DNA from: a bacterium
Lineage (GTDB): Bacteria > Cyanobacteriota > Vampirovibrionia > Gastranaerophilales > Gastranaerophilaceae
Length of the DNA: 35,720 nt
Direction of reading: 5' to 3'
Assembly (NCBI GenBank): GCA_017652265.1
Contig: JAGCBH010000024.1
Span: 1-35,720, forward strand
Position numbers and translations under genes: made by a program. This document shows positions 1,423 to 31,349 of this stretch, in pieces (positions within the stretch are counted from its first letter, which is position 1; every line of letters starts with the position of its first letter). The notes under the pieces are model-generated. The model searched no databases and was not told the origin of the DNA. It worked only from the letters and a program-made list of their open reading frames with translations.

Positions 1423-2315
1423 AATCATACTTTGAACTTGTTATAAGTATAAATCCCGAACTGGAAGATGTGATGTCGGATTTCTTTTTTGAAAATTTTC
1501 CGACTGAGGGGGTTGTTCTGGCGGAAGAAAGTTATAAAAACCTTGAGATGACGTCAACGACTGAAGGAAATCTTAAAGTATTTTTAACCGAAGAACCGCA
1601 GGGGTTAGATAATTTACTAAAAGATTACCGTAGAACCTTAAAAGACAGAGGCTTAACCGACGACTTTATGGGGAGCTGGGATTACACAATTGATGAAAAA
1701 GAAAATCAGGACTGGTCCAAAAAGTGGAAAGAAAAATGGGATGTAACCCATGTTACGGACAAAATAACTGTAGTTCCAGATTGGATTGAATATACTCCGA
1801 AAAGCAAAGATGAAGTTATTATAAGACTTGAACCCGGTTGTGCTTTCGGTACCGGAACTCACGATACAACGCAGATTTGTATGCGTGCAATTGAGCTTTT
1901 GGGTGTTAAAGGTAAAAATGTGGCGGATATCGGCATGGGAAGTGGTATTCTTTCAATTTGTGCCAAAAAATTCGGAGCAAAATATGTTTACGGCTGCGAT
2001 AATGATGAAACCGTTATTGAAGTTGCACGTGAAAATGCTCTTAAAAACAATGCAAAATGTGAATTTGAGCTTGGAACGGCGGATAAAATCAATAAAAAAT
2101 TTGATTTTGTTTTGGCAAACATTTTGCATAATGTTCTGGCAGAGATTATGGGTGATTTAAAAAACATAACTACTGACGGCGGTTATATAGTTCTGAGCGG
2201 AATTTTAGATGAAAAAGCGCCGATAGTTGTGGATGCTATCAATAAAAACAGGCTGAAAATAGTAAACGAACTTCACCAAAATCAATGGGTGGGGTATATT
2301 GTTGAAAAAATTTAA
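1419..2315 (+). CDS. prmA: Ribosomal protein L11 methyltransferase
   Basis: SAM-dependent enzyme that methylates lysines and the N-terminus of ribosomal protein L11. The 298 residues show the PrmA layout. An N-terminal L11-binding domain spans about 1-100. The WKEKWDVTHV linker (about 103-112) leads to LEPGCAFGTGTHDTT (137-151), the family signature, usually LDPGLAFGTGTH. The SAM-binding loop is VADIGMGSGILSI (168-180), with Met where most homologues have Cys. ANILHNVL (233-240) is the substrate-side motif. The start overlaps the accA stop. The stop TAA is embedded in TAAGGAGA, which serves as the ribosome site of kdsB. PrmA often sits in unrelated housekeeping operons, so no functional link to accA is implied. 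Confidence 0.95.
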   Translation: MKSYFELVISINPELEDVMSDFFFENFPTEGVVLAEESYKNLEMTSTTEGNLKVFLTEEPQGLDNLLKDYRRTLKDRGLTDDFMGSWDYTIDEKENQDWSKKWKEKWDVTHVTDKITVVPDWIEYTPKSKDEVIIRLEPGCAFGTGTHDTTQICMRAIELLGVKGKNVADIGMGSGILSICAKKFGAKYVYGCDNDETVIEVARENALKNNAKCEFELGTADKINKKFDFVLANILHNVLAEIMGDLKNITTDGGYIVLSGILDEKAPIVVDAINKNRLKIVNELHQNQWVGYIVEKI

Positions 2316-2325
2316 GGAGAGAAAT

Positions 2326-3054
2326 ATGTCAACAGCGATAATAATTCCGGCAAGATACGGTTCAAGCAGATTAGAGGGAAAACCTTTGATAGAAGTTGAG
2401 GGTAAGCCTATTATTCAGTGGGTTTATGAAAAAGCTGCGCAGTCAACTTTAGCTGATATTATTATCGTGGCAACCGACGATGAAAGAATTTATAATTGCG
2501 TAAAAGGTTTTGGCGGTGATGTTGAGATGACATCCGTTAATCACAAGTGCGGAAGCGACAGAATTCAAGAAGTTATGGACAGACACCCTGAAATCACACA
2601 CGTTGTTAATCTTCAGGGGGATGAACCGTTGATTACGCCGGAAAGTATTGATGCGGTTATGCGAAATGTGTTAGAGGATGATGAAGCCGATATTTCAACG
2701 CTTTTGAGGGTTATAAAAGATGATGAAGTTAATAATCCGAATTTGGTAAAATGCGTTGTTGATAATCGTGGCTATGCTCTGTATTTTTCACGCTCTAAAA
2801 TTCCTTATGAAAGAAATGCTGATGTTGCGACATTTTACGGGCATTTGGGAATATACGGATACAAGCGTGAAGCCCTAAAACGCATGACAAAACTTTCTCA
2901 GTCTCAGCTTGAAGTCGCTGAAAGTCTTGAACAGTTGCGTGCTCTTCAAAACGGTATGAAAATTAAGACGACTGTCGTTGATTTTGTCCCTGTCGGTATT
3001 GATACCAAAGAAGATTTGGAAAAATTCAAAAAACTTGTCAGCTCTCATAAATAA
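2326..3054 (+). CDS. kdsB: 3-deoxy-manno-octulosonate cytidylyltransferase (CMP-Kdo synthetase)
   Basis: Activates Kdo with CTP to CMP-Kdo, the donor used to build the inner core of LPS; cytoplasmic. The product is 242 residues (E. coli KdsB 248). The nucleotide-binding N-terminus reads IPARYGSSRLEGKPL (7-21). It is followed by ATDDERI (49-55), the GSDRI segment (76-80), and VNLQGDEPLI (94-103), which carries the metal-binding Asp. The C-terminal SQLEVAESLEQLRAL stretch is typical of the family. ATG 2326 is chosen because it follows a strong AAGGAGA at 2314-2320. An in-frame TTG at 2299 lies inside prmA and has no such site. With kdsD at 24588 it shows a Kdo-containing outer membrane. Confidence 0.95.
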   Translation: MSTAIIIPARYGSSRLEGKPLIEVEGKPIIQWVYEKAAQSTLADIIIVATDDERIYNCVKGFGGDVEMTSVNHKCGSDRIQEVMDRHPEITHVVNLQGDEPLITPESIDAVMRNVLEDDEADISTLLRVIKDDEVNNPNLVKCVVDNRGYALYFSRSKIPYERNADVATFYGHLGIYGYKREALKRMTKLSQSQLEVAESLEQLRALQNGMKIKTTVVDFVPVGIDTKEDLEKFKKLVSSHK

Positions 3055-12383: not shown

Positions 12384-12421
12384 TTTCAGAAATTTATATG
12401 TTGAAGGAATTAAGAATAAAT

Positions 12422-14209
12422 ATGGCTCAAACTGGTGAAATACAACTGTTTATAATATGGAGTACGGCTCGGGATAGAGAGAGCTTTATTCTTGATGAAA
12501 TAAAAAGCCAGTTCAAAATTCTTGAAATATACGAAATTGAGTGGTCAAAAAAGACATTTAAAAGAAATTTAGACAGATTATATTTTGAAAAATTTAAAAG
12601 AAAAATCTGGCATACCGGCACAGGCAAATTTCTTTTGATTACTGTTCTTGATGAAAATCCTGAATATGCCTATGAAAAAACACTCAAAGGTTTTGAATGT
12701 GTAAACAAAAAAACAGTCTGTCTGAAAAGAAAAATCAGAAATATCACAAAAAAATATAATTTCCATTGTACAAATGCCATATCAGAAGTTGATCAAAATT
12801 TGTCATTTTTTATAAACAAAAATTACGACAATTATTATGAATATGCAAAAAATGTACACTTTGACGGTAATTATATTCGGATAAAAAGTGAACCTGTTGG
12901 CACTTTTGGATGGAAAAATCTTGATGAAATTTTCGATTTGTTTAACAGTTCCTGCAAATATTGTCTGCTAAAAAATGTGGATGAACAGGATGGCGTGATT
13001 GATATTTTAGTTGATAATTTGAACAAGGTTAATTTCATACTAAATGCCAGAGAAGTTATCAAAGAAAAATATTTTAGATGCATAAAAGTTGATGTTTCAG
13101 GTAAGGAATATACTTTTAATGTAAGATGCGTGGACGATAATTATTTCTGTGAAAAATGGGAAAACGATATGCTTAAGAACAGAATTTTTAATCAGGCGGG
13201 TTATTATAGTCTGTCGCCTGATGACAGTAAATATTCGCTTCTGTATCACATATTTTTCCATAAAGAAGAAATACCTTCTAAATATATAGGCTTTTTAAAC
13301 AGATTAGCATTTAACAGAATGGATTTATACAAAGAGTTATCAGAGTTTTTAGATGCTAATGACTACTATGTTGTGCGGCCTAATGATAAGAAAATAAAAT
13401 TGAATACTTTAAATTGTGCAGGAATGGAATGGGTAAAATTACTTTCTTCCAAATACGGTTTTGAAAATATTGAAGAATTTAGAGTAAATAAAAAACCAAG
13501 TTCAGGTTTTACTCATTTCTTTACCGCCGATTATGATGGGCACAGGGTATTTATAAAGTGCGGTAACGGTATTTATGACGCTAAAAAAGAGTTTGAATTA
13601 TACAAAACTCTTCACGAACAAAATCCTAAATATTTCCCAAAAGCGTATATGTACCGCAATTTGTCAAATAATCGTATGTTTTTATGTACTGAATATATTG
13701 ACGGCATAAATCTTTCTCAGGAATTTGTAAACAAAATATCTGATCCGGAAGCGTTGCAAAATATGTTTAATTCTCTTTATGAAATTGCGGCTACTTTGTT
13801 TAAAAATAAATTTATACACAGAGACTTAAATGGCGGAAATCTTATTGTTACCGGGAATGGCATTATTAAGTTAATAGATTTTCAGCATCTTATAGGCGGA
13901 CAATTTAAGGAAAATCCTGAAAATATCATATATCCTAAAAAATTGCGCGGTACAAATAAACATTTGCGTCCTGCACCGTTTGTTTGGGATGATATGTATT
14001 CAATATACAAGATGATGAAATTGTTTGAAAAATCTCATATTGAAGATTATGATGTAAAACTTAATGTGATAAAATCTAAAATCGGTAAATTAAAATATTA
14101 TTTCTTTGATAATAAATTTCCGTTTATATCATTTATAAATTTCAAATATCTTTTTATCTATAAAACCATAAGCATTTTTAAACGCCCTTTCAGAAAATTG
14201 TTAAAGTGA
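12422..14209 (+). CDS. Kinase-like protein with unfamiliar N-terminal region
   Basis: A 595-residue protein; residue numbers here count from the earlier ATG 12398, eight codons upstream. Its C-terminal third is an ELK/LPS-kinase-like fold. Lys387 in VFIKCGN is the candidate ATP-binding lysine. A hinge EYIDGINL (432-439) precedes the catalytic loop HRDLNGGNLIV (474-484), and LIDFQH (492-497) carries the metal-binding Asp where others have DFG. The N-terminal part (about 15-140, starting QLFIIWSTARDRESFI) and a middle section with GVIDILVDNL (199-208), recalling a nucleotidyltransferase DID motif, match proteins I have seen near capsule genes, from memory only. No signal or membrane helix. The gene is richer in Lys, Asn, Ile and Tyr than its neighbours, hinting at transfer. 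ATG 12422 has AAGGAA upstream; ATG 12398 has nothing. Substrate unknown, possibly a surface glycan. Confidence 0.6.
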   Translation: MAQTGEIQLFIIWSTARDRESFILDEIKSQFKILEIYEIEWSKKTFKRNLDRLYFEKFKRKIWHTGTGKFLLITVLDENPEYAYEKTLKGFECVNKKTVCLKRKIRNITKKYNFHCTNAISEVDQNLSFFINKNYDNYYEYAKNVHFDGNYIRIKSEPVGTFGWKNLDEIFDLFNSSCKYCLLKNVDEQDGVIDILVDNLNKVNFILNAREVIKEKYFRCIKVDVSGKEYTFNVRCVDDNYFCEKWENDMLKNRIFNQAGYYSLSPDDSKYSLLYHIFFHKEEIPSKYIGFLNRLAFNRMDLYKELSEFLDANDYYVVRPNDKKIKLNTLNCAGMEWVKLLSSKYGFENIEEFRVNKKPSSGFTHFFTADYDGHRVFIKCGNGIYDAKKEFELYKTLHEQNPKYFPKAYMYRNLSNNRMFLCTEYIDGINLSQEFVNKISDPEALQNMFNSLYEIAATLFKNKFIHRDLNGGNLIVTGNGIIKLIDFQHLIGGQFKENPENIIYPKKLRGTNKHLRPAPFVWDDMYSIYKMMKLFEKSHIEDYDVKLNVIKSKIGKLKYYFFDNKFPFISFINFKYLFIYKTISIFKRPFRKLLK

Positions 14210-14215
14210 AACAAT

Positions 14216-14244
14216 TTGCACTCAGCTCATTTTTATGGTATAGA
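14216..14244 (+). promoter_or_regulatory. Promoter of ylxR-infB
   Basis: TTGCAC (14216-14221), 17 bp, TATAGA (14239-14244) preceded by TGG (extended -10). It lies directly after the kinase-like gene, so infB is probably transcribed independently of prfA. Confidence 0.55.
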
Positions 14245-14263
14245 TTAGTAAACGAGCAGATTT

Positions 14264-14503
14264 ATGCAAAGAAAATGCGTGGTATGCGGCAAATATGATG
14301 ACCGCGAAAATATGATAAGAATAACTAAAACTGCAGACGGGCAGGTTTTTGTTAACGGGAATTCTAAAATATTTGGCAGATCGGCATATATTTGCTATAA
14401 TAAGACTTGTGTTGAAGAGGCGCTGAAGAAAAATCGGCTTCAAAAGGTTTTAAAAACGCAAATCTCCGAGGATTTGAAAGGAAAAATAATAAATGAGTTA
14501 TGA
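14264..14503 (+). CDS. ylxR: YlxR-family (DUF448) RNA-binding protein
   Basis: A 79-residue protein of the YlxR/DUF448 family, usually encoded between nusA and infB and thought to bind nucleic acid. The N-terminus RKCVVCGKYDDRENMIRI (3-20) keeps the two-Cys knuckle and the following Arg. The family motif GRGAY appears as GRSAY (38-42), followed by another Cys pair (CYNKTC). No nusA lies upstream here; instead prfA and the kinase-like gene do, so the classical nusA-ylxR-infB order is broken. Its last 11 bp overlap the start of infB, so the two are translationally coupled. The ribosome site is weak (GAG at 14254-14256). Confidence 0.9.
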   Translation: MQRKCVVCGKYDDRENMIRITKTADGQVFVNGNSKIFGRSAYICYNKTCVEEALKKNRLQKVLKTQISEDLKGKIINEL

Positions 14504-17040: not shown

Positions 17041-17565
17041 TTATGATATTAATCCGAACACAGCGCCCAGTGCAAGATAAAATGCAGGCGGAAGTTTCTT
17101 TTTAAGGCTTATGAATATCATTAATCCGAAAAGAATGAAGTGTATTATATTAAAATTTCCGCTTAAAAATTCGTTTATAAGCAGGTGCACTCCTACTGCT
17201 GTTAAAAGTCCGCAGCCCAGAGGTTTTAATACTGAAATTACCGATTTTACATAAACATTTTCGCAAAATTTATTTAAAAATTTGGAAATAATAATGACGA
17301 AAATTAGTGACGGTATGATTATTGCGCTTGTTGCAAGTAAAGAACCCAATATCCCTGCGGTTTTAAAACCTGCAAAGGTTGCCATATTTATTCCGACAGG
17401 GCCCGGTGTGATTGAAGCAACCGCAAGCATATTATTCAGTTCGTCAAGCGTGTACCACCCAAATTTTTCGGAGATGTCATATAAAAACGGCAATGTTGCA
17501 TAACCGCCCCCGAATGAGAAAACTCCTATATGAAAAAATTGCAAAAACAGGTGTAAATATATCAT
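17041..17565 (-). CDS. Chromate transporter-type (CHR) membrane protein, half-size, second of pair
   Basis: A 174-residue integral membrane protein with the CHR/ChrA domain: FHIGVFSFGGGYATLPFLYD (11-30) and TPGPVGINMATFAGFKTAG (53-71). About five to six hydrophobic segments follow. Classical ChrA is a tandem duplication of about 400 residues. Short-chain forms such as this are made by two adjacent genes and are thought to work together, probably as chromate/sulphate antiporters. Its start overlaps the stop of its partner by four bases (17562-17565). It is the last gene of the atpD-atpC unit. Whether it moves chromate or another anion cannot be told from sequence. Confidence 0.88.
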   Translation of the reverse strand: MIYLHLFLQFFHIGVFSFGGGYATLPFLYDISEKFGWYTLDELNNMLAVASITPGPVGINMATFAGFKTAGILGSLLATSAIIIPSLIFVIIISKFLNKFCENVYVKSVISVLKPLGCGLLTAVGVHLLINEFLSGNFNIIHFILFGLMIFISLKKKLPPAFYLALGAVFGLIS

Positions 17566-18107
17566 TTTTTACCTGCTTTCGCTTTGTAAAAGCCTGTTAT
17601 TATACCAAAAATTATACCCGCAATGATAACGAATGCGGGAGAAATTTTTAAACCAAAAAGACATATAAATGCACACAAAAACACAATGAGCGAATATTTA
17701 TCAACAATGCTTTTTTCTCTCATTTCATTAATTGCCTGAAACACAAGTGCCAGAACGCCTATTCCTATACCGGCGAATGCTTTTTGAACAATGGTTAAGT
17801 TTGCTATGTTTGTCAAAAAACTTGCAAGTAAAATTATTGCTGTAAAAGCGGGTAAAATCAATGCTGTTACAGCGCAAATTGCCCCTTTTGTTCCCATGAG
17901 TTTATGCCCGACAAGACCTGCTGTATTTATTGCAATGATTCCCGGCATGCATTGTGAAATCGCGTAGTATTCACAAATATCATCTTCGGCTATTTCATCA
18001 AATTTATCGGCAATTTCTGCTTTTAAAAGAGGTAAAATAACGTATCCGCCGCCTAAAAGCAATGCCCCTATTTTAAAAAAACGTTTGAAAATACAGTACA
18101 TATCCAT
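17562..18107 (-). CDS. Chromate transporter-type (CHR) membrane protein, half-size, first of pair
   Basis: A 181-residue CHR-domain membrane protein, paralogous to the following gene. The first motif reads FFKIGALLLGGGYVILPLLK (10-29). The second is CMPGIIAINTAGLVGHKLMG, where TPGP is replaced by MPGI. About five further hydrophobic segments end in a basic tail (YKAKAGKK). The two halves differ in exactly the positions that distinguish the N- and C-type domains of full-length ChrA, so they probably form an obligate heterodimer. It starts 2 bp after the atpC stop, with a GGAAA site inside atpC, so it shares transcription with the ATP synthase genes. Confidence 0.88.
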   Translation of the reverse strand: MDMYCIFKRFFKIGALLLGGGYVILPLLKAEIADKFDEIAEDDICEYYAISQCMPGIIAINTAGLVGHKLMGTKGAICAVTALILPAFTAIILLASFLTNIANLTIVQKAFAGIGIGVLALVFQAINEMREKSIVDKYSLIVFLCAFICLFGLKISPAFVIIAGIIFGIITGFYKAKAGKK

Positions 18108-18509: not shown

Positions 18510-19985
<1,476 letters not shown>

Positions 19986-20017
19986 TTAGGGGATTTATAA
20001 TTATAAAGGAACATGAA

Positions 20018-20521
20018 ATGAGAATATCAAATATTGAAACAAGCGATTTGAATTTCGGAACAGTGAAAATCCGCATAAGAGGTCAATATTTTAAAGATCA
20101 TCCTAAATCTGCTCAAATGTTACGGGAAGCAATTTTAAACGATGAAGGAATAACTGATTTTTTCAGTAATCATCGCGGTAAAATAGTGGTTTCTTTTAAA
20201 GAAACTGTTGTTCCTTTAAAAGAGGAATTACGCACTCCGGAAGAAGGTTTTCGTGAATATCGTAAAGTTCCGCGTGTAGATATTCATTGTACATATCATC
20301 GTGCTTTTGCCTTGAGAAATATTTTTAAAAAACCCGTTTGGATGAATGCAGGAACCAAGCCAAATCCTGAAACGACCTGGGAAAAATGTATTGCTGATGC
20401 TTTTGAATTGATAAAAAGTTTAGGTAAAGATACTCCAGAAAGCATGAAAAAGCGCGGAGACAGATTGCCAAGAGATTTTGCAAGTGTTGAAGCAAGAAGA
20501 TTAAAAGTTGAAAAACCATAG
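20018..20521 (+). CDS. Hypothetical protein, no recognised family
   Basis: A 167-residue soluble, basic protein that I do not recognise. It starts MRISNIETSDLNFGTVKI, has a strand-rich first half (FGTVKIRIRGQYF, GKIVVSFKETVVPL) and ends in a helical, Lys/Arg-rich tail (MKKRGDRLPRDFASVEARRL). There is no signal peptide, membrane helix or obvious catalytic motif. ATG 20018 follows AAAGGAA (20006-20012). Earlier in-frame starts (19949) fall in the divergent atpD promoter region. It is followed after 45 bp by another unknown gene that appears to have its own promoter. The composition looks native. Confidence 0.65.
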   Translation: MRISNIETSDLNFGTVKIRIRGQYFKDHPKSAQMLREAILNDEGITDFFSNHRGKIVVSFKETVVPLKEELRTPEEGFREYRKVPRVDIHCTYHRAFALRNIFKKPVWMNAGTKPNPETTWEKCIADAFELIKSLGKDTPESMKKRGDRLPRDFASVEARRLKVEKP

Positions 20522-20566: not shown

Positions 20567-21244
20567 ATGAATTTATTTCAGAGAGTTTTATATTCAATAC
20601 TTTTGGTAAAAGAAAAACTTTTAACATACAGGCTTTCAGGGCATTTAAAGGGTTCCTATTCCAATTCAACATCAAAAACGGTTATAGGGCAGGCGGCAAC
20701 GCTTGATATTAGTGCCGAAACTTTGACAAATCTTGACCTTGTTAAAAAAGAGATGACGGAGCTTGTCAACAAGTCAAAATTTTCAGCCGATGTTTTATTG
20801 GATTATGCCAAATCTCAGGGAATAAAAGCAGTTTTTATAAAAGATGCTGCTAAAATCCTGAATTTACTGAGGGAGGAACAAGGGTTTATACCTGAGCGCA
20901 GAGGGCTTGACGGGTTTATTCTGAATTTGCTTTCTAATAATGGTTTATCATATAACTCAAAACCTGTTGTGGTGCTTGAAAAAGATAATAAAGATTTTTA
21001 TTACCTGTTATTTACCGTTTATAAAATTTGCGGATACATCCATAAACTTCCGGGTTATGATTTTGAAGCGCAAAATTTGTTTAAAATGTATGCTAAATTC
21101 GGCGATAAAGCCGATACCTCAAAACTCAAAATAGAGCAATTGAGTGCATTAAAAGAAGCGGTCGCAAGAGATAACGAAGCAAGCACTTTTGTTATAGAAA
21201 TATCAAAAATGCGCGACAGTGCTGTTAAAAAAGACAATCAATAA
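20567..21244 (+). CDS. Hypothetical protein, no recognised family
   Basis: A 225-residue protein that I cannot place. The N-terminal 25 residues are mildly hydrophobic and basic (MNLFQRVLYSILLVKEKLL) but lack a cleavage site. The rest is helical and charged, with a central FYYLLFTVYKICGYIHKLPGY segment and a stretch GIKAVFIKDAAKILNLLREE. No catalytic motif stands out. There is no Shine-Dalgarno sequence before ATG 20567, and a promoter places the RNA start at about that codon, so it may be translated leaderless. The stop TAA is 1 bp from the stop of the convergent DUF2229 gene. Confidence 0.65.
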   Translation: MNLFQRVLYSILLVKEKLLTYRLSGHLKGSYSNSTSKTVIGQAATLDISAETLTNLDLVKKEMTELVNKSKFSADVLLDYAKSQGIKAVFIKDAAKILNLLREEQGFIPERRGLDGFILNLLSNNGLSYNSKPVVVLEKDNKDFYYLLFTVYKICGYIHKLPGYDFEAQNLFKMYAKFGDKADTSKLKIEQLSALKEAVARDNEASTFVIEISKMRDSAVKKDNQ

Positions 21245-24587: not shown

Positions 24588-25574
24588 ATGCTAAATACAC
24601 CTGAAAAAATGTTAAATTCTCAAAATGATATCTTAAGTGCGCAAAAAACTATTGAAAGTGAAATTGAAACGATTAAAAAGTTAAAAGAAACTTTGTCTGA
24701 TGGTTCATTGTCAAAAGCGCTTGATATGATGGAAAAAGCAGCCGGCCGTATAATTCTTACCGGCATGGGGAAATCAGGTCATATCGCAAGAAAAATTGCG
24801 GCATCATTAGCTTCAACAGGTACTCCGTCATTTTTTGTTCATCCGGCGGAAGCAAGCCACGGGGATTTGGGTATGATAACCGAACAAGATGTAGTTGTTG
24901 CAATTTCTAATAGCGGTGAATCAAAAGAATTAATAGATATTTTAAACTATTGCAAGCGTTTCGGAATTTCCCTGATTTCTATAACCAAAAATCCTGACAG
25001 TGCGCTTGGTAAAGCAGGAGATATTGTTTTAAGATTGCCGGATAACGGTGAGGCTTGTCCTTTGGGGCTTGCACCGACAAATTCAACTACGGCTACACTT
25101 GTTTTGGGTGATATTTTGATGGTTGCAATGCTTGAACGCAAAGGTTTTTCTAAAGAAGATTTTAATGAACGCCATCCGGGCGGAAAGCTTGGCTCTATTT
25201 TGCAAAGGGTGTCAGACCTTATGCATAAAGGTAATGAAATGCCGTTATTAAGCGAAAAATCCGATATGCAGGCGGCGCTTTTGGAAATGACATCAAAATG
25301 TTTGGGATGTGTAGGGTTTGTTGATGAAAACGGAAATCTGACAGGTATGCTCACAGACGGCGATTTGAGAAGATGCTTAAATGCCCAGACATTCAATAAA
25401 GATGTATATTCCGTTATGACTAAAAATCCGAAGACCATATCAAAAGATGCTCTTGCTCAAGAGGCCATGAAACTTATGAACGACAAAAAGATAACAAACC
25501 TTTTTGTTGTTGAAAATGGCAAACCTATTGGTGTTATTCATATTCATGATTTGTTGAGTGCCGGCATAGTTTAA
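24588..25574 (+). CDS. kdsD: D-arabinose-5-phosphate isomerase
   Basis: Converts ribulose-5-phosphate to arabinose-5-phosphate, the first committed precursor of Kdo for LPS; 328 residues (E. coli KdsD 328). The SIS domain spans about 40-185. It has GMGKSGHIARKIAASLASTG with the Lys-Ser pair, then HPAEASHGDLGMI, SNSGESKEL and APTNSTTATLVLGD, and the ERHPGGKLG segment that closes the domain. Two CBS modules follow at about 205-260 and 275-328. ATG 24588 follows CGGAG. Together with kdsB it covers two steps of the Kdo route; kdsA and kdsC are not here. Confidence 0.95.
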   Translation: MLNTPEKMLNSQNDILSAQKTIESEIETIKKLKETLSDGSLSKALDMMEKAAGRIILTGMGKSGHIARKIAASLASTGTPSFFVHPAEASHGDLGMITEQDVVVAISNSGESKELIDILNYCKRFGISLISITKNPDSALGKAGDIVLRLPDNGEACPLGLAPTNSTTATLVLGDILMVAMLERKGFSKEDFNERHPGGKLGSILQRVSDLMHKGNEMPLLSEKSDMQAALLEMTSKCLGCVGFVDENGNLTGMLTDGDLRRCLNAQTFNKDVYSVMTKNPKTISKDALAQEAMKLMNDKKITNLFVVENGKPIGVIHIHDLLSAGIV

Positions 25575-29618: not shown

Positions 29619-31349
29619 ATGTTAAATAAACTGAAAATTTTGTTATTTACCTTTTGTTTAGTTATGACATTTTTGGCTGCAGATGCCGCTCAAAATCAGA
29701 TTATAAGCACCGGGGTTCGTAAAATTTCCGATAATACCGTTAATTTTACTTTCTACACTTCAGGTGATAACCTTGAAAAACCTATTGTTAAATCAAAGGG
29801 AAATAATGAATATACAATACTTTTACCTAATATGTCAGATAATACTTCCCGCGCTATAAATATCGGCGCAACTGACGGTATTGTTACATCTGCGGATGTT
29901 AAAACAATAAATGAGGGAGCTGTTACTTATACAAAAGTTAATCTTAAAACTTCAAAACCGATTACGATTAATGCGGAAATGAAAAAAACCGCTCAAACCG
30001 CCAGTGATTCATCAAGCATCAACAATATTGTATCTAAGGTAAATCTTATTAATCAGGATATTCAGAATACAAAAAATATTTCTGATTCATCTTATTCAAA
30101 ACCTTCTCAGCCTGTTATGAATGTTTCGTCTGTTAAAGACATAATCAGACAAAATTCTGCGTCTGCGCCTAAGAAAAATGCAATTCAGGAAGCTGTTGCC
30201 GTGAATAGTGTTTCCGCACACACTCCAAGTGTTAAAAAACTTGATAAATCCGTTAATAACAAATCTAACAGTGAAAATATAAAAAATACCAAACCAAGTG
30301 CAGAAAAAAACGTTAATAGCACTCCAAAACCTGCAGAAAATTCGGTTTCCGCAAACAGTAACGATAATTCTGTTGCAAAAAGTGCCGAAGAAATTGCGGC
30401 AGCTAATTTAGTTGATGTTGATGAAGTGCTGCCTTCGGATGAGGTTTTACCGCTTGATGAAGTTAATCATGAGCCGATTTATTCCGGCGGATTTTCGCTG
30501 ATGGAAAGTATAAAGAATATACTGTTTTCTCCGTTTACGACAATTGTATTTCTGACTTGCCTTTTATTGGCATTCTTCGGATTCTTGTTCAGAAAGTTAA
30601 CGGCAAATCTTTCTGCCACAAACAGTATAAACGATTCGTTTATAGAAAAGCTTAACGGTGTTCTGAACAAGCCTAAAGATAAAGATTTCTCACAAATTGT
30701 CAACAATGAAAAGATGAGCTGGCAGGAAAAATACAGAGCATTTAACAAATCAAACAAAGAGTCTGAAAAAGCGGAAACAAAGGAAATTAATAATGAATAC
30801 GTTCTTGAACTGACAAATGATCAGCCTGAGGATAATGAAGTTGCGGAAACTGAAAATGCGGTTTCTGAAGTAAGTTCTTCCGTTGAAAAACCCGAAGGAC
30901 GTAAACTGACAGGATTTACAAACAGTATTTTAAGACCGGCTTCAGGTATTAAACCGGTACAACCTCGCAGATTAAAATCGTTTGACAGTGCGCCGGCTTC
31001 TCAAAAATACGTAAAAGAAAAACTGGATAAAATTGTTGAAAACCGTTCTAAGTCAAGTTCTGTAACCAATACTGTTTCCAAACGTCCAAGTGCAGAAAAC
31101 ATGCGTATATTACAGAGCAGTGCAATTGATAACGATAAAGAATTTTACATAGTTAATGAAAACGGTGAATATTCACTTCTTGGACGTGTAAAAAACAGGC
31201 TTGTTATACTTAAACGTTTTGGTAAAAAGCTTCCGTCAGATTTGCAGGTTCGCAGAGGCCGCGGTAATGCCTTTATTGTTAAGGCGGGCGATTTCAGAAC
31301 TCAGGTCGGCGTAACCGATACCGATATGAATATTTATTCGCAAGTATAA
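29619..31349 (+). CDS. Membrane protein with exported AMIN-like N-terminal region
   Basis: A 576-residue envelope protein. Residues 1-24 form a signal peptide (FTFCLVMTFLAADAA). Residues 28-122 look like an AMIN-type beta domain, with alternating strands such as NTVNFTFYTSGDNLEKP and EYTILLPNMS. AMIN domains are common in cyanobacterial peptidoglycan-binding and secretin-type proteins. A long Ser/Asn/Lys-rich periplasmic linker (125-290) leads to one membrane helix (about 306-325). A charged, probably cytoplasmic region follows, then a compact C-terminal domain (about 495-576, with YIVNENGEYSLLGRVKNRLV). ATG 29619 has AGGGAATAGGAT upstream. The next gene follows after 12 bp. Overall function unknown; a cell-wall or envelope scaffold is an inference. 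Confidence 0.65.
   Translation: MLNKLKILLFTFCLVMTFLAADAAQNQIISTGVRKISDNTVNFTFYTSGDNLEKPIVKSKGNNEYTILLPNMSDNTSRAINIGATDGIVTSADVKTINEGAVTYTKVNLKTSKPITINAEMKKTAQTASDSSSINNIVSKVNLINQDIQNTKNISDSSYSKPSQPVMNVSSVKDIIRQNSASAPKKNAIQEAVAVNSVSAHTPSVKKLDKSVNNKSNSENIKNTKPSAEKNVNSTPKPAENSVSANSNDNSVAKSAEEIAAANLVDVDEVLPSDEVLPLDEVNHEPIYSGGFSLMESIKNILFSPFTTIVFLTCLLLAFFGFLFRKLTANLSATNSINDSFIEKLNGVLNKPKDKDFSQIVNNEKMSWQEKYRAFNKSNKESEKAETKEINNEYVLELTNDQPEDNEVAETENAVSEVSSSVEKPEGRKLTGFTNSILRPASGIKPVQPRRLKSFDSAPASQKYVKEKLDKIVENRSKSSSVTNTVSKRPSAENMRILQSSAIDNDKEFYIVNENGEYSLLGRVKNRLVILKRFGKKLPSDLQVRRGRGNAFIVKAGDFRTQVGVTDTDMNIYSQV

Follow-up and report, generated by a model that had tools for sequence, protein, structure and literature searches.

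In the window analysed here (the whole stretch of DNA, 35,720 nucleotides long), a single gene lodged between prfA and ylxR-infB encodes a protein of three predicted modules: an NDPK-like domain, a nucleotidyltransferase-like domain and a protein-kinase-fold domain. Our best explanation, in which we place about even confidence, is that the product is a membrane-associated kinase doing a job like that of WbdD or KdkA, presumably on a glycan substrate, and that its N-terminal half is decaying. A broader reading for the full-length family is held only tentatively. Under it, the NDPK-like His domain, the nucleotidyltransferase-like domain and the kinase would act serially on a phosphate-containing surface-glycan decoration, the gene would spread singly among Alphaproteobacteria as well as Gastranaerophilales, and the window copy would be midway to a kinase alone. 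Neither Pfam nor NCBIfam has a family for the first 350 residues, and the combination of modules predicted here appears new: searches of the literature and libraries did not find NDPK-like, nucleotidyltransferase-like and kinase modules together.

A kinase gene of three modules

The open reading frame spans 12398-14209 on the forward strand, with 603 codons when the first ATG is taken as the start. The ATG at 12422 is at least as likely, because a ribosome-binding-like AAGGA lies about 12 nt 5' of it and the starts of relatives fall near the equivalent residue; the protein is thus 595-603 aa long, depending on the start. The gene is single-copy in its source genome (1.59 Mb, 97% complete). The features discussed below are as follows.

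12384..14263 (+): inserted segment, prfA stop to ylxR start; absent from five congeners and from G007 on reading of synteny
12422..14209 (+): three-module kinase gene, alternative start 12398
12434..12847 (+): NDPK-like domain, aa 13-150, without a Pfam family
12764..12766 (+): His123, in an HxTN motif at the position of the catalytic His of the NDPK HGSD motif (putative structural equivalence)
12890..13387 (+): nucleotidyltransferase-like domain, aa 165-330; PF14907-like in relatives, below cut-off
12995..12997 (+): Val200, the first catalytic Asp in 9/9 full-length relatives (GDID to GVID)
13118..13120 (+): Asn241, the third catalytic Asp in 9/9 full-length relatives (FDxR/xDxW to FNVR)
13505..14032 (+): protein-kinase-fold domain, aa 370-545, with K387, E398, D476, N481, D494 and W530-D531-D532
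13817..13843 (+): HRDLNGGNL catalytic loop, aa 474-482
13871..13888 (+): LIDFQH metal-binding loop, aa 492-497, with Gln in place of the DFG Gly
14123..14206 (+): C-terminal helix, aa 576-603, a Lys/Arg-rich amphipathic tail; helix at low pLDDT
14264..14503 (+): ylxR, the downstream neighbour, given for context
14373..14401 (+): sigma-70-like promoter TTGGCA-17-TATAAT (11/12), inside ylxR and downstream of the insertion

The initial annotation had proposed a kinase-type active site, and this holds: both motifs, HRDLNGGNL and LIDFQH, are exact, the main catalytic residues are all present, and Pfam and fold agree. The Pfam Pkinase family PF00069 reaches 33.2 bits over aa 421-496 against a cut-off of 31.7, and the ABC1 profile likewise exceeds its own (31.3 vs 22.9 bits). 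Structure prediction, which the annotation had recommended, gave a kinase fold for the C-terminal half, the AF2 model matching PDB kinases at a Foldseek E-value of 1e-8. Residues K387 (the beta-3 Lys), H474, R475, D476, N481 and D494 are kept in all ten full-length proteins and the helix-C Glu, E398, in nine of them. The DFG glycine is replaced, the motif reading D-F-Q here and D-x-Q in most relatives, and eukaryote-like HRD and helix-F D-x-Y-S motifs are present. The domain is probably an active kinase, and the C-terminal tail may contact the membrane.

A Lys/Asn/Tyr/Ile bias was also noted at the outset, and it is real: the gene has 28.9% GC against 36.5% for the window, and its K+N+Y+I+F content of 43.8% is the highest among the 35 window ORFs tested. 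Because synonymous codon choice is ordinary (z=1.6; infB z=4.0), the bias lies in the amino acids and not in the codons. The suggested comparison of codon usage with the neighbours therefore lends no support to a foreign origin, and that line of argument was rejected; a foreign origin is instead supported by the comparison of synteny.

The N-terminal half in the window copy and its relatives

Prediction with AF2 gave three modules for the whole protein (pLDDT 81) and a model of the N-terminal half with pLDDT 84 and pTM 0.76, both limited in accuracy by alignments of ten rows. Residues 1-340 had no convincing match in Pfam or NCBIfam. The N-terminal half had been described as one separate module; it is indeed distinct from the kinase, but it comprises two domains, one NDPK-like and one nucleotidyltransferase-like.

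For the first of these, the H-x-[ST]-N motif and a likeness to NDPK were spotted in the alignment before the fold search. NDPKs then made up 45 of the best 50 PDB matches of the predicted N-half structure, mostly at probabilities of 0.97-1.0 and with modest Foldseek E-values (0.007-0.03). NDPK identity was accepted on fold only and rejected by sequence, as PF00334 gave no HMM match at E<=10 and a profile comparison with NDPK was not significant (P 0.11). The predicted fold of aa 13-150 is thus like that of PF00334, and the IHxTN motif resembles the NDPK IHGSD; unlike in NDPK, a beta hairpin replaces a helix and the module is fused into a 603-aa protein. His123 is invariant in 12/12 relatives, in what appears from the alignment to be the register of the NDPK catalytic His. 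NDPK chemistry is not assured, however, because an invariant Trp21 seems, by register, to replace the active-site Lys after strand 1. At the start of a G021 contig (L004 1065-1304), 85 aa of the NDPK-like domain survive as a broken fragment that contains a stop codon. The best structural matches to the N-half included giant-virus proteins (BFVD A0A1V0SAX2, A0A5K0UAL1 and A0A481Z0W0), two of them named glycosyltransferase; these were dropped as evidence for their high rmsd (14-19).

The second domain resembles NTP_transf_5 (PF14907) in its relatives, which match over about aa 190-280 and carry a DxD plus a later Asp. Every member falls below the gathering score (best 19 bits vs 31.2; best E 5e-4), and the window protein has no PF14907 match and lacks two of the acids. 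Where relatives have three Asp residues, the window copy has V200, D202 and N241. The DID-like echo reported earlier is therefore a signature visible mainly in the relatives, eight of nine full-length ones reading GDID and the ninth IDID, since the window motif is GVID. By sequence, the nucleotidyltransferase active site of the window copy is dead.

Relative-rate counts point in the same direction. In the N-half, the window protein has 38 changes against 11 for L060 (p=1.4e-4) and 36 against 16 for L059 (p=0.008), these p-values being uncorrected for ten comparisons, of which the strongest survives correction. The kinase is not accelerated (3 vs 8 and 5 vs 9). Branch lengths agree, with an N-half end branch of 0.95 for the window protein against 0.49/0.37 for its sisters, and a kinase end branch of 0.27 against 0.36/0.38.

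The initial annotation had envisaged a two-activity enzyme. For the window copy this is unlikely, given that only one of the three acids survives and that its N-half changes faster than those of its sisters. The same two observations weigh against the reading in which all modules are active, forming a bi- or trifunctional enzyme that performs, for example, sugar phosphorylation plus nucleotidyl or phospho-alcohol attachment. In its favour, GDID/IDID and the later Asp are kept in 9/9 full-length relatives, His123 is invariant, and N-half relatives adjoin genes for NTP_transferases and a HAD phosphatase. We consider it unlikely here, though it may well hold for the relatives.

Kinase-only proteins group with the window protein, L059 and L060 in the kinase tree (100/99), so that a related line lacks the N-half altogether. 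Loss of the N-half there is a simpler account than a failure ever to have gained it, but is unproven. Taken together, full-length, half-dead and kinase-only relatives offer a natural experiment that could show which of the modules is important.

Surface glycans as a possible setting

A link to surface glycans had been proposed, and the neighbourhoods of several relatives support it, with flippase, glycosyltransferase and sugar-nucleotide genes. A polysaccharide-flippase-like gene lies beside the relatives in G048 and G017, a GT2 gene adjoins the G362 relative, and an RmlD-GT2 fusion adjoins the L063 relative. The N-half relatives that adjoin NTP_transferase genes or are fused to WavE add to this glycan context. 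Neither the window gene nor its closest homologues (L059, L060) has a glycan gene as an immediate neighbour. The window holds kdsB (CMP-Kdo synthetase, 2299-3054) and a gene for a KdsD/KpsF-type isomerase (24588-25574), which means that the cell makes Kdo. The genome carries five GT2 genes but no initiating sugar transferase of family PF02397; any lipid-linked glycan that it has would thus be of another type.

Two known systems offer partial parallels. KdkA (NF002475) and the LPS heptose kinases are short kinase-fold proteins that phosphorylate LPS sugar; the window protein matches NF002475 weakly over aa 397-496, and the organism encodes Kdo genes. It is not a member, scoring 19.3 bits where the cut-off is 142, and because it scores no better there than against Bud32 or Ser/Thr kinases, a protein substrate is possible. 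WbdD, the chain terminator of the E. coli O9a O-antigen, combines such a kinase with a second enzyme and acts on a surface glycan (PMC3482155). As in WbdD, a eukaryote-like kinase domain is joined to another catalytic domain in one protein; the partners differ, being a methyltransferase and a coiled coil in WbdD and NDPK-like and nucleotidyltransferase-like modules here, and the N-half is not common to the two. A Pfam profile search found no methyltransferase match in the window protein.

On the reading that we prefer, a glycan kinase with a decaying N-half, the ancestor would have had all three modules, and the species would have gained the single gene head-to-tail between prfA and ylxR. The kinase would bind ATP through K387/E398 and D494, with D476 as the base, and would phosphorylate a surface glycolipid on a hydroxyl group of one of its sugars. 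As the window holds kdsB and kdsD, Kdo-bearing LPS is one candidate acceptor. The basic C-terminal helix would hold the protein at the inner membrane. In the glycan-cluster relatives, the N-half probably adds a second step or nucleotide or acceptor recognition. In the window copy the kinase would be the retained activity, since the nucleotidyltransferase site looks dead and the N-half appears to be under relaxed constraint.

Distribution and insertion

Matches were found in 18/383 genomes of the order, a few of the 18 being weaker kinase or fragment matches. The full-length form is present in the window, G048, G017, G375, G236 and G362, and a kinase-only form in G105, G300, G145 and G117. In G247, G153, G324 and G115 the N-half is joined to another C-half; that of G115 is near-identical to that of G324, whose protein ends in a WavE domain. 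In this other C-half (L036 1492-3540, L053 895-3996, L044 550-1905), a D-x-x-x-x-N ... FFDxE pattern aligns to the kinase HRD and DFQ loops, and it is possibly a second, unnamed kinase-like fold. The closest relatives lie on Candidatus Gastranaerophilales contigs. Further full-length relatives come from one Rickettsiales MAG and from Alphaproteobacteria, of which one or more were sampled from an animal gut; this suggests transfer across phyla. A single-sequence scan of 84,980 genomes gave no confirmed relative and an alignment-based scan gave nine loci; the plasmids searched gave one generic kinase match and nothing else, and the phages and viral contigs searched gave no relative.

This patchy distribution and the lone-gene insertions described below would also suit a mobile accessory gene for anti-phage defence, a single-gene kinase of the PD-T4-6 sort that targets proteins during infection. 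PADLOC PD-T4-6 profiles do match the Ser/Thr-kinase catalytic core (E 3e-11). The match covers only 93-183 of 372 positions, however, about a quarter of the profile and a part common to all Ser/Thr kinases, while the N-half, absent from PD-T4-6, is left unaccounted for. With several relatives in glycan clusters and none found in the phages and viral contigs searched, we consider a defence role improbable.

We give still less credence to the idea that the gene was transferred, is decaying and no longer has a function. The accelerated N-half, its lost active-site acids and the broken fragment with a stop in G021 would fit, but 603 codons remain open and the kinase end branch is the shortest among the full-length sisters. 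In each of the three domains nonsynonymous change is lower than synonymous change (pN 0.27-0.38 vs pS 0.64-0.73, with synonymous sites near saturation), and purifying selection persists in each.

The gene had been called accessory, lodged among translation genes, and both descriptions stand: it lies between prfA and ylxR-infB and, far from being always conserved at this locus, is absent from all six congeners. The prfA stop runs into ylxR within about 20 nt in G001-G003, G005 and G006 (same genus) and in G007 (same family), so the extra DNA in the window, about 1.88 kb, is a clean single-gene insertion. The eight nearest genomes (G001-G008) hold no homologue of the N-half or the full protein, G002 and G004 giving a weak match to an unrelated kinase only. 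Compared genomes are mostly metagenome assemblies, and the insertion may be an assembly join in the source data. A mobile element was considered and rejected, there being no tRNA in the window and no flanking repeat at the insertion ends. The promoter within ylxR is kept in the six relatives read and probably drives infB; it is strong and lies 3' of the insertion, which may be why infB tolerates the extra gene. A regulatory Ser/Thr kinase tied to translation, suggested by the position between prfA and infB and the eukaryote-like motifs, is very improbable, since the gene occupies this place in this species only, is missing from neighbouring genomes and has its homologues elsewhere.

A second insertion is seen in another genus, where the G236 homologue (L050 7506-9353) is flanked by dapF and an opp ATPase gene; in nine sister genomes with both genes readable, the two are immediate neighbours separated by only about 30-55 nt. 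Two independent same-strand insertions of one gene between co-directional housekeeping genes, without a visible element, raise the question of how single genes move. Elsewhere in the window, ORFs 19949-20521, 20567-21244 and 29619-31349 (190, 225 and 576 aa) have no Pfam or NCBIfam match, and 17041-18107 holds two adjacent half-size chromate-transporter genes of one domain each.
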